A DNA stretch of 64,000 bases from Jiangella sp. DSM 45060. Its GTDB lineage: Bacteria; Actinomycetota; Actinomycetes; Jiangellales; Jiangellaceae. The position numbers were made by a program, and so were the translations under genes. The stretch's first letter is position 1. Every line of letters starts with the position of its first letter. Location: the NCBI RefSeq assembly GCF_900105175.1, contig NZ_LT629771.1, positions 3,472,001-3,536,000 of the forward strand. Reading direction: 5' to 3'. The notes beneath the pieces are model-generated. The model saw only the letters and a program-made list of their open reading frames with translations, was not told the DNA's origin and did not search any database. Shown here piece by piece: positions 6,358-22,773 of the stretch.

Positions 6358-9300
6358 CGGTCGAGCTCCTTTGCTGAAGTGATCGTGGCCGGCCGCAGCT
6401 CGACCCGGTCGACGAGGAAGGTCCCGGTGCTGTCGCCCTCCTCCGGGTCGAGCCGGAGCTGCCGCAGCACGCCGGTCCAGCCGGCGACGCCGCTCAGGTC
6501 CAGCTCGTGGTCGACGTAGCCGGTCTCACCCGGCACGAGCGGGATGCGGATGCTGTTGGCCTCGCTGAAGTTCGGCTGGGCCTCGGTGGTGAAGTACAGG
6601 GTGCCGTGCGTCGCGCTGGTGTCGACGGCCATCCGGATCGACACCGTCGTGAGCTCGGTGAGGTCGAGCCAGAGGTCGGGCGCGGAGTAGAACTGCGGGT
6701 CCGGCCCGGTGATCGTCCCGCCCACGGCCCCGTCGTTCCACCCGAACCCGTCGATGTGGCCGGCCCCGCCCCACCCCTCGGCGGACTCGTCGAAGGTCCA
6801 GGTGCGCTTCGTGTTGAGCGAGGTCAGCACGAACGGCTCGACCCGGACGGTGTCGACCCGCAGGTGTTCGTCCGGCTCGGCGCCCACGACCTCGACGGCG
6901 AGGTGCTCCAGGACGCCCCGCCAGGCGGGCACCGCGTCCATGCCGACCTGGTAGGTCGTGAACGTCTCGTCGTGCGCGGTGAGTTCGAACGGGACGGTGT
7001 GCTCGGCGCCCTCGGGGTCGGCGCTCGTGCGGAACCGGAGCACGCCCTGGTGTGCGGATGAGGCGTTGCGCAGCCGCAGCGTCACGGTGTCGGCGTTGGC
7101 GAGGTCGGCTCGCAGCTCCGGCGAGCCGAGCACGTCGCCGTCGCCGTCGAGCGGGACGTCGGCGGAGCCGTCCGGTCGCCAGGTCGCGCCCGGCGCCGTC
7201 CACCCGTCGAGGTCGTCGGCGAAGTGGGCGGCGTACACCGCGTGGTCCGGCGCGAGCCGCACGTGGCCGAGCTCCATCCGGCCCGCGCCGGCGGAGACCT
7301 CGACGCCGATCTGGTGGACGGTGCCCGCCCAGTCCGGTGCGTCGGTCAGGTCGACGACGTAGGCGGTGTGGCCGCTGTTCGCGGCGATGCGGAACGGACG
7401 GCGGCCCTCGACGGTCCGGCCGTCGGGCGTGGTCGCCACGTAGCGCAGCTGGGCCTCGCGGGCGGCGGTGCGGTTCTCCAGGTCGACGAGGACGGAGCGG
7501 TACTCGCCGGCGTCGATCTCGAGGTCGCCGGGCGAGAGGAGGGCCGCGCCGGGTCCCGCGACGTCGCCGCCGATGGCGCCGTCGTCCGACCAGTGCGGGC
7601 CGTCGACCGGCCCGGCCCCGGTCCAGCCATCGGCGCCGTTGGCGAACTCCCACGCGGTGGCCGGCGGCGCCGGCGTGGTGTCGCGGGCCGACCGGACGGC
7701 GAGCTCGGCCACCTCCGGCCCGCCGCCGGTGGTGCCGGTGACGAGCAGCTGGACGACGTCGGCGCGGGTCATGCCGAGCTCGATGGTGGTGGCCTCGGAG
7801 AGCTCGCCGCCACGGTGGGCGGTGCGCCAGCCACGCGCGTCGTGCAGGCGTAGTTCGAACGACGTGATCGTGGTGCCGGCGGTCCGGGGCACCACGTCGA
7901 CCCGGTCGAACGGCACGGTGCGGCCGAAGGACAGGGCGACGTGGTCGCCGGAGGCCTGGGTGCCGCGCCAGTACGTGCCCACCCGGCCGTCGCCGACCTG
8001 CGCGGCGTTGGTCGCGAACCACTGCGCGGGGGCGAACGACGACGCGGTGGCGTACGCGCCGGCCAGGAGGTCGGCCGGGTCGCCGTCGCGTCCGGCCGCG
8101 CCGACGCCGTACTCGAAGTAGTCGTGGTAGTAGGTGCCGCTCTGGGCGAGGAACACCACCATGATCTCGTGCTGTCCCTCGGGCAGGCCGCGCAGCTCGA
8201 ACGCGGTGCGCCGCGGCTCGTCGCGCTCGCTGTAGAGGGAGACGACGCCCTGGGACAGCCCGTCCACGAACACCTCCGCCTCGGTGCCCTTCGGGCCGGC
8301 CGGAGCCACCCAGCGCACGGCGTTGCCCTCGAAGCCGGCCCTGATGAAGCTGCGGAAGAACGCGTCGCGGCGGCCGCCGGGGTTGTAGAGGTAGCTGTAC
8401 GTGCCGCCCGAGCTGTCCGGGTCGGCGGCCGTCACCCAGGTGCTCGCGGCCGGGGTGACGTGCGCCTCGTAGTCGGTGGTGTGGTCGTCGTCCTCGATCC
8501 GGTGCCAGCCCGGCGCCTGTTCCGGCAGCGGTTCCACCGCCGGCGGTCCGGCCTGCTCCCCCGCGCCGGGGTGGTCGCCGGTGTCGTAGAGGTAGCTGAA
8601 CCGGCCGTCCGGTGCGGCGTCGCCGGAGAGGTAGGCGTCCATGATGTCGTCGCTCTGCTGGTGGTCCCACCACTTGAAGGCCAGCCGCAGCGGCTCGTCC
8701 GTCCCGTCCAGTGCCTCCCGCGGCACGGCCACCATCAGCTCGTCCCTCGCGGTCCGGTACGGGACCGGCGCGTGGGCGTTCTCCCAGCCGTCGCCCGTGA
8801 AGCGCTCCAGCCGGGCGTCGTCGGCGCCGTGCCAGCGCACCCGCAGGTCGTAGCCGGACCAGCCGGTGGCGCCGTCGGCGTCGGAGTCGAGGTACAGGGT
8901 CATCCAGCCGTCGGCGGACACCTCGGTCAGCTGCTCCTGGGTGCGCGCGTAGAAGTAGACCTTCTCGTCGTCCCTGGTCACCTTCGCCGAGACGATGTCG
9001 TTGCGGCCGGTGCGGTTGACGTACGTCCGGGCGTCGACGCCCGGGTGGTCGCGCGGCGCGGTGTCGCCCTGGTAGTCGGCGTACTCGGGCGCCACGTCGC
9101 TCCACTGGCCGAACCCGCCGCGCAGGTCGATGGTGCGCTCGGCCCCGGTGCCGGCGGGTGGCGCCACCCCCTTGTACCGGCGGATGTTGTCGACCAGCTG
9201 CAGGTAGTAGTTGTCGCCGTAGCCGCCGGTCATCGGTGCGAGGTCGCGGCTCCACCGGGTGTTCACGACGTCGTAGAACACCAGCGGATCGGTGGGCCGC

Positions 9301-12565: not shown

Positions 12566-13975
12566 ATGACGACAACAGACGAGCGCCCGGCGAGCTTCCG
12601 CGAGCTGTTCGCCGCGGGCCGGGCCACGACCTCGCTGGTCCTGGCCGGCGGCATCGCCCTGCACGCCGTGAACATCTTCCTCACCACGAGCCTGTTGCCC
12701 ACCGCGATCGACGAGATCGGCGGCGAACGGCTCTACGCGTGGAGCACGACGGTGTTCATGATCGCCTCGGTGATCTCGTCGATGCTGGTGAGCCGGACGC
12801 TGGCCCGGCGCGGACCGGTCGCCGCCTACCTCATCGGGCTGGCACCGTTCGTGCTCGGCGCCGTCATCGCCGCCGTCAGCCCGTCGATGACGATGCTGCT
12901 GGCCGGCCGCGCCGTCCAGGGCTTCGGCGGCGGCATGCTGGCCGGGCTCGGCTACGCCGTCATCCAGGCGGCCTACCCCGAGCGGCTCTGGGCCCGGGCG
13001 ACGGCGCTGGTGTCGGCCATGTGGGGCGTCGGGACCCTGGCCGGCCCGGCCATGGGCGGCGCGTTCGCCCAGCTGGGCACCTGGCGCTGGGCGTTCGGCG
13101 TGCTGGCGCTCGCCGGCGTCGCGCTGGCCGTCCTGGTGCCGCGGGCGCTGCCGCGCTCGGACGGCCGGGCCGTCGCCGAGCCCGTCCCGTACGTCTCGCT
13201 CGTCCTGCTGACGACGGCGACCGCGCTGATCAGCGTCGCGAGCCTGCGCGACGACACCGTGCAGATGCTCGGCGTCGTCGCCGCCGCGGTGGTCGTGATC
13301 GGCGCGTTCGTGCACTGGGAGCGGCGCTCGCCGGTGCGGGTGCTGCCGCGCTCGACCTACGTGGCCGGGTCGCCGCTGAAGTGGCTGTACCTCAGCATCG
13401 CGATCCTCGCCGTCGGCACGGTGTCGGAGGCGTTCACGCCGCTGTTCGGCCAGCGCCTCGCCGGGCTGGAGCCGGTGGTCGCGGGGTTCCTCGGCGCGGC
13501 CGTGTCGCTCGGCTGGTCGGCCACCATGCTGGTCAGCTCCGGCGCCCGGCGGCCCGAGGCGGTGCGGCGGCTGCGCGTCGCCGGGCCGGGCGTCATGGCC
13601 CTCGGTCTCGCCGTCACCGGCGTGTTCCAGCGGGAGGACGCCGGCGCCTGGCTCGTGGTCGTGTGGGTGCTCGGGCTGGTCGTCGCGGGCGCCGGCATCG
13701 GCCTGGCGTTCCCGCACGTCGTCGTCGCGGTGATGGGTAGCTCGTCCGACCCGGCCGAGGCCGGCAAGGCCAGCGCCGGCGTCAACACCGTCGAGCTGAT
13801 CGGGCTGGCCATCGGGTCGGCCGTGGGCGGGCTGCTGCTCAATCTGGGCGCGCCGTCGATGCTGGTCTCGGCCCGGTACCTGCTGTTCGGGCTGGCCGCC
13901 GCGGGGGTCGTCGGCGTCGTGGTGGCGCTACGGGCGTCGGCCGTCAGCGCGGCGGCGACCTCTGCCGATGGGTGA
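12566..13975 (+). CDS. MFS multidrug transporter, SoxR-controlled
   Basis: 469-aa membrane protein with about 14 hydrophobic segments, first VLAGGIALHAVNIFLTTSLL. MFS marks include the loop LVSRTLARRGPVAAYLIG and the motif-C-like MWGVGTLAGPAMGGAFAQLGTWRWAF of drug exporters. It probably pumps out redox-active or toxic compounds. Start ATG 12566 fits the leaderless promoter; the longer reading upstream would pass through the operator. The SoxR box in its promoter is the strongest clue to function. Confidence 0.88.
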   Translation: MTTTDERPASFRELFAAGRATTSLVLAGGIALHAVNIFLTTSLLPTAIDEIGGERLYAWSTTVFMIASVISSMLVSRTLARRGPVAAYLIGLAPFVLGAVIAAVSPSMTMLLAGRAVQGFGGGMLAGLGYAVIQAAYPERLWARATALVSAMWGVGTLAGPAMGGAFAQLGTWRWAFGVLALAGVALAVLVPRALPRSDGRAVAEPVPYVSLVLLTTATALISVASLRDDTVQMLGVVAAAVVVIGAFVHWERRSPVRVLPRSTYVAGSPLKWLYLSIAILAVGTVSEAFTPLFGQRLAGLEPVVAGFLGAAVSLGWSATMLVSSGARRPEAVRRLRVAGPGVMALGLAVTGVFQREDAGAWLVVVWVLGLVVAGAGIGLAFPHVVVAVMGSSSDPAEAGKASAGVNTVELIGLAIGSAVGGLLLNLGAPSMLVSARYLLFGLAAAGVVGVVVALRASAVSAAATSADG

Positions 13976-14037
13976 GCCCGGCCGCCGCTGTCGTCGTCGC
14001 GGGTGTCACGCTGGTGGACCACTGGAGGAGGCCCGAC

Positions 14038-14562
14038 GTGACCGGCGACTTCGAGCTGACCGACGACGAACTGCGGGTGGTGGCCCGCTACGCGGCCGAG
14101 TCGGCGCAGGACGTGCTGCCCGTGTTCGAGCAGGCCTGCCCCGGCGACCCCCGGCCGCGCGCCGCCCTCGACGCCGCTTGGACGTTCGCCGGCGGTGCTC
14201 GCCGGACCAGGCTGCAGCGGGTCACGTCGCTCGACGCGCACCGGGCCGCGGCCGCGGCGCCCACCGAGGCCGCCCGCCTCGCCGCCCAGGCCGCCGGCGA
14301 CGCCGCGTCGGCCGCCTACCTGCACCCGATCGCCAAGGCGCACCAGGTCGGCCACATCCTGCGCGCCGCAGCCAACGCCGCCCGCATCGCCGAGCTCACC
14401 GCCGGCGACGACCCCCGCGCCGGCGACGCGTCCCTCGAGCTCGCCCGCCGGCGCGCCACCAACGTCCTCGTCGACGTCCTGCGCCGCTACCCGCCCGCGC
14501 CCGCCGGCAAGAGCCGTCCCGCCGCCCTCATGTCCGCCCTCGACGCCGCTTTGCGCGCCTAG
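14038..14562 (+). CDS. Putative immunity protein (Imm5-like)
   Basis: 174-aa soluble, alanine-rich helical protein. The pattern LTDDELRVVARYAAESAQDVLPVFEQACPGDPRPRAALDAAWTFA, then HPIAKAHQVGHILRAAANAAR, resembles the Imm5-like family linked to contact-dependent toxins in actinobacteria. No toxin gene is beside it, so it may be an orphan immunity gene or do something else. The GTG at 14038 has GGAGGAGG six bases upstream (14024-14031). It runs tail to tail with the PLP enzyme gene. Confidence 0.55.
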   Translation: MTGDFELTDDELRVVARYAAESAQDVLPVFEQACPGDPRPRAALDAAWTFAGGARRTRLQRVTSLDAHRAAAAAPTEAARLAAQAAGDAASAAYLHPIAKAHQVGHILRAAANAARIAELTAGDDPRAGDASLELARRRATNVLVDVLRRYPPAPAGKSRPAALMSALDAALRA

Positions 14563-19940: not shown

Positions 19941-21599
19941 TCAGGAGCCGGTCTCGGGGTAGTAGAGCCGGCCGTCGGGCCCGAACGCGTAGCCCGCGTC
20001 GGCCAGCGCCTCCATCGCCGCGCCCGCGTCGTACTCGAACGGCGCGAGGCCGGGGTCGTGCCACTGCTCCAGGCTCGGCGCGATCACCGAGCCGCCGGGC
20101 TCGGCCGCGCCCTCCATGACGACGTCGACGAGGTCGTCGTACGGGACCAGCGAGCGCAGCGCCACCCGGAAGGCGCGGTCGTCGAACGGCGCCCGGGACG
20201 TGTTGAGGTGCAGGCCGCGCCAGCCGTGGCTCTGGGTCTCGACGACGGTGACGCCGTCGGTCTCCTTGAGCGACTGGTACTGCGTGGCCGGCTGCACGTC
20301 GTCGTAGAGGTCGATCTCGCCCGACGTCAGCGCGCTGATGCCGGCCTCGAAGCTGCCGAGGATGGCGAGCTCCAGCCGGTCGACCACCGGTGCGTCGTAG
20401 TGGTCCGGCCGGGCCGCGAAGCTCAGCGACTCGCCGATGCGGCGCTGCTCCAGCACGAACGGGCCGGACCCGACCGGCGCGTCGTTCGTGAACGTCGTCG
20501 GATCGGCCACCGCCGACCACGCGTGCCGGGGCAGGATCGGCAATTGCGTGAGCGTCACGTCGGTGAAGGCCGCGGCCGGCGCCGCCAGCGTGATCGTCAC
20601 CGTCTGCCCGTCCGCCACCACGCCGCTCACCCCGGACAGCCCGGCCGCGTAGAGCGGCGCGGCGGTGTCGCGCAGGTACTCGACGGTGAAGGCGAGGTCC
20701 GCGCCGGTGACCGGGGCGCCGTCGCTGAACGTCATCCCGTCGCGCAGCGTCAGCGTGACCTCGGTGCCGGACACCTCGACGCTCTCGGCGGCCCGCTCGA
20801 CGGTCTCGCCGTCCGCGTCGATCGCCAGCGGCGTGTCGTAGACCAGCGACAGCGGGATCTGGCTCTCCAGGGTGTCGACCAGCACCGGGTTGAGGGTCGG
20901 CGGGTCGAAGACGGTGCCGACGACCAGCGTGTCGCGGTCGTCCAGCGGGGTCGCCGAGGTCGCGTTCCAGACGTTGAAGAGCGGGTAGCCGACGGCCGCC
21001 TCGATGCCCTCCCACCGGTCGGACCGGTACGCCGCGCCGACCACCGGGTAGATCAGTGGCACCACCGGCACCTCGTCGTAGAGGATGCGCTGCGCCTCCT
21101 CGACGGCGGCGCGCCTGGTCTCGGCGTCGCCGGCCTGGTTCTGCTCGAGGTACGCGGCGTCGTAGCCGGGGTCGACGAACATCGAGACGTTCGACCCGGC
21201 GTCGGTCGCGCCGTCCGACTGGAACCGGCTCAGCAGGTTGTCCGGGTCGAGGCGCTCCGGCGTCGGCCCGTACGACACGACGAACGCGTCGTAGTCCTTC
21301 CCGGTGAACGTCCGCGCGTTCAGCTGCGCGTCGTCGACGGGGAGCAGTTCGGCGTCGATGCCGGCCTCCTGCCAGGCCTCGACGATCATCCGCGACAGCT
21401 CGAACCGCGACGGGTCGTTGGCCGCCGTCTTCGTCAGCAGCTGGATCGTGGGGACGGGTTCGCGGCCCGCGGCGTCGTCGATGGTCGGCGCGTCGGCCGG
21501 CCCGCGGTCGTCCACCGGCACGCTGGTGCAGGCCGCGACGGCCAGCGCCGAGCAGAGCAGGAGTGAGCAGGAGGTGAGGCTGGTGTAGCGACCACGCAT
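19941..21599 (-). CDS. Peptide-type substrate-binding lipoprotein, apparently circularly permuted
   Basis: 552-aa lipoprotein with lipobox VAAC (Cys24) in the SBP_bac_5 (DppA/OppA) family, but the segments are in swapped order. Residues about 50-212 (TIQLLTKTAANDPSRFELSR, KDYDAFVVSYGP, AQRILYDEVPVVPLIYPVV) are what normally forms the C-terminal part. Residues about 222-552 (DTLVVGTVFDPPTLNPVL, GMTFSDGAPVTGADLAFTVE, VGSGPFVL, AFRVALRSLVPYDDLV, ALADAGYAFGPDGRLYYP) are the normal N-terminal and middle parts. The end of the protein is where the usual sequence would continue into its beginning. ATG 21599 has AGGGAGA five bases upstream. Ligand unknown; the operon suggests a peptide or amino-acid derivative. 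Confidence 0.8.
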   Translation of the reverse strand: MRGRYTSLTSCSLLLCSALAVAACTSVPVDDRGPADAPTIDDAAGREPVPTIQLLTKTAANDPSRFELSRMIVEAWQEAGIDAELLPVDDAQLNARTFTGKDYDAFVVSYGPTPERLDPDNLLSRFQSDGATDAGSNVSMFVDPGYDAAYLEQNQAGDAETRRAAVEEAQRILYDEVPVVPLIYPVVGAAYRSDRWEGIEAAVGYPLFNVWNATSATPLDDRDTLVVGTVFDPPTLNPVLVDTLESQIPLSLVYDTPLAIDADGETVERAAESVEVSGTEVTLTLRDGMTFSDGAPVTGADLAFTVEYLRDTAAPLYAAGLSGVSGVVADGQTVTITLAAPAAAFTDVTLTQLPILPRHAWSAVADPTTFTNDAPVGSGPFVLEQRRIGESLSFAARPDHYDAPVVDRLELAILGSFEAGISALTSGEIDLYDDVQPATQYQSLKETDGVTVVETQSHGWRGLHLNTSRAPFDDRAFRVALRSLVPYDDLVDVVMEGAAEPGGSVIAPSLEQWHDPGLAPFEYDAGAAMEALADAGYAFGPDGRLYYPETGS

Positions 21600-21681: not shown

Positions 21682-22773
21682 TCACGACCTCCGGTCGGTG
21701 CTGCCGAAGATCCAGTCCTCGATCGAGCGGATGAGCTCCGCCGTCGCCTCGGCGCGCAGCGAGTAGCGCGTCCCCACCCGGTCGCGCTCCTGCCGCACCA
21801 GGCCCGCCGCCCGCAGCCGGTGCACGTGGTGATGCACCGTCGGCTGCCCGAGCCGCAGCTGCGCCGCCAGCTCGGCGGCGTACATGGGCCGCTCCGCCAG
21901 CATGCGCAGCAGTGCGAGCCGGTTCGGATCAGACATGGCCTTGAGCGCCGTGACGAGGTCCTGGCGGATCGGCACCGGGTCGTACCCGTCGAAGAAGGCG
22001 CTCGGCACGCCGTACACGACCAGCGCCGCACGCGCGGCCTGGTCGACGCGCGCGGACATGTAGGGGTGCGCGAAGACCGACGGCGCCAGCGTCACCGACC
22101 GCAGGTCCAGGTCCTCGCCGAGGGTGTAGCCGCCCGTCAGCTGCTCGATCACCGTCGGCGCCGGCACCACGTCGAGCATCGCCCGCGCGGCGCCCGCGGC
22201 CTCGTCGAGCAGCACCGTGAGGTCGTCGGCCTGCTCGGCGAACACCCGGTCGAGATAGCTGCCCAGCACGGCGACCAGCTCGGCCTGGACGACGTCCGGC
22301 TCGCGGAGCACGCGCCGGCACCGGGCCGCCCAGCCGGGCAGCAGTCCGGCCACCGCCGTCGCCGCCCGCTTCGGTGCGCCGTCCAGCACCTCGCGGTAGG
22401 CCGCGAGCCGCTGCGCGTCGGCCTCGCCGTCGTCGAGCATGAGCATGGCGAGGTCCGCGGCCGGCAGGGCCGCGACGGCGTCGATCAGGTCGCGCGGCCC
22501 CGCACCGAGCGGGAGGTCCGCGATGAGGCGGATGGCCCCGTACCCCAGCGCGGTGTCGAACCCCTGGAACAGGAACCTAGCCGCCTCGGTGTGCTCGTCG
22601 CCCAGCCGTTCCAGCTGCTCCGACGTCCACCGGCGGGACCGCGTGAAGGTGCGCGGGTTGTGCAGCGCCCGCAGGCTGACCACGAAGTCGTAGCAGACCG
22701 AGGCGTCGACCCGCACGTCGCCGACGAACCCGCGGTCCACGGCCTGCGCGTCGGTGCCTTTGATCAACTTCAT
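21682..22773 (-). CDS. ArsR-type regulator with large N-terminal domain
   Basis: 363-aa protein. The C-terminal quarter is a winged helix: TALKAMSDPNRLALLRMLAERPMYAAELAAQLRLGQPTVHHHVHRLRAAGLVRQ. The N-terminal 260 residues are a helical region of the DUF5937 type often fused to ArsR domains in actinomycetes, and no metal-site motif is seen. ATG 22773 is taken; TTG 22782 and GTG 22779 are alternatives. It lies 82 bases upstream of the binding-protein gene on the same strand and probably senses the importer's substrate or a related signal. Confidence 0.7.
   Translation of the reverse strand: MKLIKGTDAQAVDRGFVGDVRVDASVCYDFVVSLRALHNPRTFTRSRRWTSEQLERLGDEHTEAARFLFQGFDTALGYGAIRLIADLPLGAGPRDLIDAVAALPAADLAMLMLDDGEADAQRLAAYREVLDGAPKRAATAVAGLLPGWAARCRRVLREPDVVQAELVAVLGSYLDRVFAEQADDLTVLLDEAAGAARAMLDVVPAPTVIEQLTGGYTLGEDLDLRSVTLAPSVFAHPYMSARVDQAARAALVVYGVPSAFFDGYDPVPIRQDLVTALKAMSDPNRLALLRMLAERPMYAAELAAQLRLGQPTVHHHVHRLRAAGLVRQERDRVGTRYSLRAEATAELIRSIEDWIFGSTDRRS

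Follow-up and report, generated by a model that had tools for sequence, protein, structure and literature searches.

A circularly permuted cluster C substrate-binding protein in Jiangella sp. DSM 45060 and an apparent clade of homologues with the same segment order

Among natural ABC transporter binding proteins, the only circularly permuted example that we recognized in the literature searched, most of it outside subscription journals, is TpMglB-2 (Tp0684) of Treponema pallidum. In the parts of its report used here, the term 'Cluster Bc / Type Ic' was coined for this protein, ligand binding was shown, homologues with the same layout were described, and tethering was put forward as a possible reason for the permutation (PMC4990184). 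The same search, again mostly outside subscription journals, yielded neither a publication on a permuted cluster C protein nor a solved structure of one, and in the portion of PMC9732360 used here the word 'permuted' refers to a GFP.

Here we describe a permuted substrate-binding protein (SBP) of cluster C from Jiangella sp. DSM 45060, encoded in the window, by which we mean the whole 64,000-nucleotide stretch of DNA that was analyzed (Table 1). We consider it very probable that this protein is a lipid-anchored importer SBP that was permuted once, long ago, and that it belongs to a separate clade present in Actinobacteria, Alphaproteobacteria and haloarchaea. Beyond the single gene, it is this permuted clade that holds the main interest, as it appears to be old, widespread and undescribed.

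Segment order and predicted fold of the Jiangella protein

A sequence-only reading of the window had described a single uninterrupted gene in which the segments of an SBP_bac_5 protein are swapped, and both parts of that description were borne out. The frame runs through 552 codons without interruption, and when the genome was searched with PF00496, profile positions 266–365 were found upstream of positions 4–285 within this one frame. In the comparison that this reading had proposed, the native order matches PF00496 in two stretches (199.5 bits against a curated cut-off of 32.4), whereas residues 222–552 followed by residues 50–212 match it in one stretch that spans profile positions 4–365 of 368 (209.8 bits). 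The protein departs from the collinear order of the family profile and is read as one stretch only after rearrangement. We assign it to cluster C because it matches PF00496, and we file it as a permuted subclass rather than a classical member because its segment order differs.

Table 1. Features of the permuted SBP gene and its neighbors; coordinates are positions in the window
Feature	Coordinates	Strand	Basis
Permuted SBP_bac_5 / cluster C substrate-binding lipoprotein gene, 552 aa	19941..21599	−	Frame, PF00496
Signal peptide, residues 1–23	21531..21599	−	Sequence
Putative lipobox Cys24	codon 21528–21530	−	Sequence motif
Residues 50–212, usual C-terminal segment, here first	20964..21452	−	PF00496, PDB sequence matches
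Residues 213–221, linker between old C-terminus and old N-terminus	20937..20963	−	W211–L225 span
Residues 222–552, usual N-terminal two thirds, here last	19944..20936	−	PF00496, PDB sequences, model
DppB-type permease, 345 aa	18887..19924	−	PF00528, PF19300
DppC-type permease, 293 aa	18009..18890	−	PF00528, PF12911
Fused DppD-DppF dual ATPase, 591 aa	16237..18012	−	Two ABC_tran stretches and oligo_HPY
Small cupin, 115 aa	15842..16189	−	PF07883
PLP-dependent enzyme, threonine-synthase-like, 428 aa	14559..15845	−	PF00291
ArsR-type regulator, 363 aa, just upstream of the SBP gene, same strand	21682..22773	−	PF12840, PF01022

The 7.49 Mb genome holds 43 PF00496 places, two of which are the reversed stretches of this gene. 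The remaining 41 comprise 39 single stretches in normal order and two that belong to one frame-split gene, also in normal order. As a separate observation, that gene (L074; C1 4685046–4686316) carries profile positions 1–52 and 62–350 in different frames and reads as a frameshifted or misread SBP_bac_5 gene.

The swapped order was also seen in phmmer searches of the PDB. Query residues 219–547 aligned with residues 14–346 of Lmo0135 (5isu) and query residues 60–207, weakly, with residues 348–489 (16.0 bits), and for HbpA2 (3tpa) query residues 329–544 aligned with 137–354 and query residues 63–187 with 366–486 (31.2 bits). A profile built from 18 permuted proteins matched 112 PDB sequences at E ≤ 1e-10, with the N-type segment as the top-scoring stretch in every one of the best 60 of these 112. 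In the three PDB alignments inspected (AppA, Lmo0135 and DppA) the N-type segment precedes the C-type segment along the chain, and none of the solved chains among the matches listed for this profile has the permuted order. We thus confirm that residues ∼50–212 are the C-terminal third, and residues ∼222–552 the N-terminal two thirds, of an SBP_bac_5 protein. The lipobox noted in the sequence-only reading is plausible as well, since VAAC, ending at Cys24, is what we take to be such a motif.

To describe the protein at the structural scale, we used an AlphaFold2 model built on 74 alignment rows, namely 8 permuted proteins and, cut from collinear relatives, 24 N-pieces and 42 C-pieces. This model is good (pLDDT 90.5, pTM 0.88), with low confidence at residues 1–30 and middling confidence near residues 31–40 and 201–210, and the collinear pieces in its alignment carry knowledge of the normal fold. 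With the 8 permuted sequences only, the model was poor (pLDDT 53.8). The pieces derive from 55 profile matches, from which seven duplicate loci and the frame-split L074 were set aside and the remaining 47 collinear proteins were each cut in two; five of the 47, being near-duplicate or weak matches, were omitted, leaving 42 piece pairs to align. All 42 C-pieces were misplaced in the first joint alignment; after trials of subsets with MAFFT, every C-piece was kept and the N-pieces were reduced from 42 to 24.

Model residues 217–550 superpose on the N-terminal part (the chain up to about residues 325–400) of the 50 solved chains listed, DppA included. VIA-align to AppA gave Z 25.4 and rmsd 4.0 over 329 aligned residues, placing model residues 217–550 on chain residues 18–357, and against this same part of the model AppA, NikZ, DppA and OppA gave Z values of 22–25. 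The rows listed by VIA-align and by Foldseek were cluster C proteins, and cluster B proteins were absent among these listed fold matches. Judged by its pTM, the confident model is predicted to be one compact protein, as the sequence-only reading had expected of a structure prediction. Within it residues 217–550 have the predicted cluster C fold, and residues 50–212 are assigned by sequence to the other third of AppA- and DppA-type chains. That the gene might instead encode two unrelated domains was rejected in view of the homologues, the rearranged PF00496 match and the confident model.

In three-dimensional space the two segments would fold into an ordinary two-lobed protein, in which a short linker would connect the former ends, in lobe I, and a loop of lobe II would hold the new ends. 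This placement of the old and new ends follows what we take to be the OppA domain limits. Since the new ends would be in lobe II, the lipid anchor would hang from lobe II and not from lobe I.

Homologues, breakpoints and origin of the permutation

The same order recurs in related genomes, where the sequence-only reading had suggested that homologues be sought, and in unrelated ones. Proteins of J. muralis and J. asiatica are 95% and 83% identical to the window protein, respectively. Within Jiangella's family the permuted order is present in 5 of 22 genomes, four of them Jiangella (the source genome included) and the fifth matching Phytoactinopolyspora alkaliphila, with a protein that is 41% identical. 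One of the four Jiangella genomes carries a second permuted copy, 40% identical to the window protein. Nonomuraea sp. G32 has a permuted protein that is 51% identical, and one further genome among the 341 searched of its family has the permuted order. In a sample of the actinobacterial phylum, full-length matches were found in at least 3 of 296 genomes, the window's included, which is a lower bound given a threshold of E ≤ 1e-70 and scoring of the best four candidates per genome. The actinobacterial total is made up of four Jiangella, Phytoactinopolyspora, Nonomuraea and three other actinobacterial genomes.

Plasmids extend this distribution. By tblastn, at least 80% of the query is covered at a single place in 46 of 72,556 plasmid records. 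In 45 of these the match is one piece in permuted order, and by genus name the 46 belong to haloarchaea and alphaproteobacteria. All 13 plasmid proteins fetched match the permuted profile as one domain, a result that confirms order and not frequency because they were chosen by their permuted tblastn match. The plasmid records examined name the permuted members only 'ABC transporter substrate-binding protein'. Matches also occurred in 13 phage records, none of which covers 80% of the query. From these comparisons, this looks like an old permuted subfamily common to Archaea and Bacteria rather than one rearranged gene.

In the tree made from both segments, the permuted proteins group as one clade. 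Scored with the profile of permuted proteins, 23 of 88 proteins matched end to end in permuted order and 65 were collinear, two of the latter being assigned by eye. In the combined-segment tree one branch splits the 23 from the 65 (99/99, and 100% of 200 bootstrap trees), in an alignment made on the profile of permuted proteins only and with collinear rows chosen for their similarity to permuted proteins, mostly from Actinobacteria. Quick trees of single segments need two changes, with starred branches forcing only one; many branches in the trees are long, and long-branch joins were flagged. At position 116, 21 of the 23 permuted rows have a letter, which is Arg in 20, and none of the 17 collinear rows with a letter at this position (of 65, the other 48 being gapped) has Arg. 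This Arg, which directly precedes a conserved xDP motif, is possibly a signature of the clade.

The breakpoints lie where they had been claimed to lie, before PTIQLLT, giving a new start at about residue 50, and after ALADAGY..GRLYYPETGS, giving the new C-terminus, so that the cut falls in the loop that links the AxAGY helix to the following strand. The old ends meet near residues 213–221, and the W211–L225 span across them measures 14–16 residues in all 23 permuted proteins. Compared with the join from the permuted C-terminus to residue 50, the segment spacing is 1 to 5 residues shorter in 27 of 47 collinear relatives, 7 to 23 residues shorter in 17 and 1 to 4 residues longer in 3. Because of this spacing in the collinear relatives, we regard the cut as almost exact and any loss of sequence as slight. 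The tree split and the constant span across the old ends are consistent with one old origin. On balance, it is probable that a single ancient permutation founded a group, here called 'cluster Cc', spanning Archaea and Bacteria and marked by an N-terminus, and an anchor where there is one, in the opposite lobe, a near-fixed linker and a clade-specific Arg.

How the permutation arose can be read in several ways. The tandem duplication followed by loss of the outer halves that had been proposed from the sequence is possible, though unproven. The C-terminal piece of one SBP gene could also have been fused to the N-terminal piece of a different paralogue, giving a product that would work alike. For the cluster B case, the parts of the TpMglB-2 report used here do raise acquisition from a different gene (PMC4990184), and the window's genome has 43 PF00496 places. 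Moreover, decayed SBP_bac_5 and Opp/Dpp-type ATPase fragments lie directly upstream of the permuted operon in Nonomuraea sp. G32 (L043, about 6612–7560). We nonetheless regard such a fusion as unlikely, as the cut is almost exact when judged by the spacing in collinear relatives, a precision that fusing unlike genes need not give. The segment trees do not decide on it because the nearest relatives of the window protein in them are permuted proteins only. As for the Nonomuraea SBP remnant, it was rejected as an ancestral tandem copy, since its short pieces of 32–43% identity look like those of a different paralogue.

Several independent permutations at one loop in different phyla would fit a cut that falls in a loop and the two changes needed in segment-only trees. 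This is quite improbable when set against the single branch of the combined tree (99/99, all 200 bootstrap trees), the W211–L225 span that hardly varies among the 23 proteins, the shared Arg116, and the match of all 23 to one profile from end to end. An unusual order might even suggest a dead gene or an assembly artefact, a reading that we give next to no weight: the frame is open and has a signal peptide, the transporter genes are retained beside it, and the same order is found in other assemblies at 97, 95, 83, 51, 48, 41 and 40% identity. These homologues refute it.

Transporter genes, substrate and anchor

In the window, two BPD_transp_1 permease genes and the fused Opp/Dpp ATPase gene adjoin the permuted SBP gene; they lie downstream of it on its strand, as do the cupin and PLP-enzyme genes. 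Relatives of DppB, DppC and the ATPase are found near the permuted SBP in 18 of the 19 loci that exceed 10 kb and reach past the SBP, in keeping with the earlier view that an intact operon speaks for a working protein. Gene order varies, with the ATPase gene ahead of the permeases in L087 and L092 and a transposase between in L086. The exception is a Halopenitus persicus plasmid (L093) with insertion sequences after the permuted SBP; no permease match was found in its 15.4 kb stretch, and its SBP reads as an orphan or part of a decaying system. J. asiatica is outside the 19, as its contig stops at the SBP and a DppB relative opens another contig. DppB matches at E ≤ 1e-75 occur in 5 of the 393 genomes searched at class level, and these are exactly the genomes that show a full-length permuted SBP, with only the best few candidates per genome scored in this comparison.

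Next to the transporter, the cupin and PLP-enzyme genes also follow directly in two Jiangella relatives and in Nonomuraea sp. G32. In locus L073 relatives of the two were looked for and not found, and in L036 and L037 a PLP-enzyme relative lies further off (39–42% identity). The PLP enzyme matches NCBIfam threonine synthase models below cut-off. Convergent with its gene, on the plus strand, lies a gene for an Imm5-like putative immunity protein (13972–14562).

In all likelihood the Jiangella protein is a functional receptor of an importer, and its putative solute is small and resembles an amino acid or a peptide. It would capture this solute, shut around it and pass it on to DppB-DppC in a step driven by the fused ATPase, and the cupin and PLP enzyme would process what is imported. 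Genes for M20, M28 or M81 peptidases, creatininase, D-aminoacylase, dipeptide epimerase or hydantoinase lie nearby in 6 of 11 annotated plasmid loci, counted for permuted loci only; an S9 peptidase gene also stands beside the SBP in the one collinear locus fetched, from Halorussus. We infer from these neighbors that small amide- or peptide-like solutes are taken up.

There is also some chance, clearly the lesser one, that the protein senses rather than imports, or that the clade binds a non-peptide solute such as an opine, a metal chelate or a sugar. Cluster C ligands are diverse, with NikA, AgaA, AccA and chitin-oligosaccharide binders among the PDB matches; no NCBIfam equivalog reaches its cut-off for this SBP, and peptidase or amidohydrolase genes are absent near 5 of the 11 annotated plasmid loci. 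Against this reading stand the permease and ATPase genes in 18 of the 19 long loci and the peptidase or amidohydrolase-type genes near the other six plasmid loci. In DppA, Asp408 binds the amino group of the ligand. In an alignment read by hand it corresponds to residue 115. Of the 21 permuted rows with a letter at this position, 13 carry an acidic residue, too weak a pattern for naming the substrate.

A plausible lipobox Cys is present in all 7 haloarchaeal and all 10 actinobacterial members (two of the ten by eye), and a lipobox is absent in all 6 alphaproteobacterial members. These last members make tethering an unlikely general explanation of the permutation in this clade.

A permuted Opp/Dpp clade offers a natural test of whether capture and delivery depend on chain order, end placement and membrane anchoring. 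It is also a reminder that profile matches in two reversed pieces can conceal real, intact proteins, and permuted SBPs could serve as sensor scaffolds with their ends in the other lobe.

Relation to known binding proteins

The cluster C proteins DppA, OppA, AppA and Lmo0135 (CtaP) resemble the Jiangella protein in both segments by homology, in the predicted fold of residues 217–550 and in the kind of operon. Unlike these proteins, which are collinear, the Jiangella protein has the C-terminal third first, its old ends joined and its new termini placed in the loop that follows the AxAGY helix. TpMglB-2, as described in the parts of its report used here, differs in another respect, as it is a sugar binder of cluster B, whereas the Jiangella protein falls in cluster C by PF00496. 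Tethering, suggested for TpMglB-2, is in turn an unlikely general reason for the permutation in the Jiangella clade, given its alphaproteobacterial members. What the two have in common, on the same portions of that report, is that both are naturally permuted substrate-binding proteins with homologues of the same layout.
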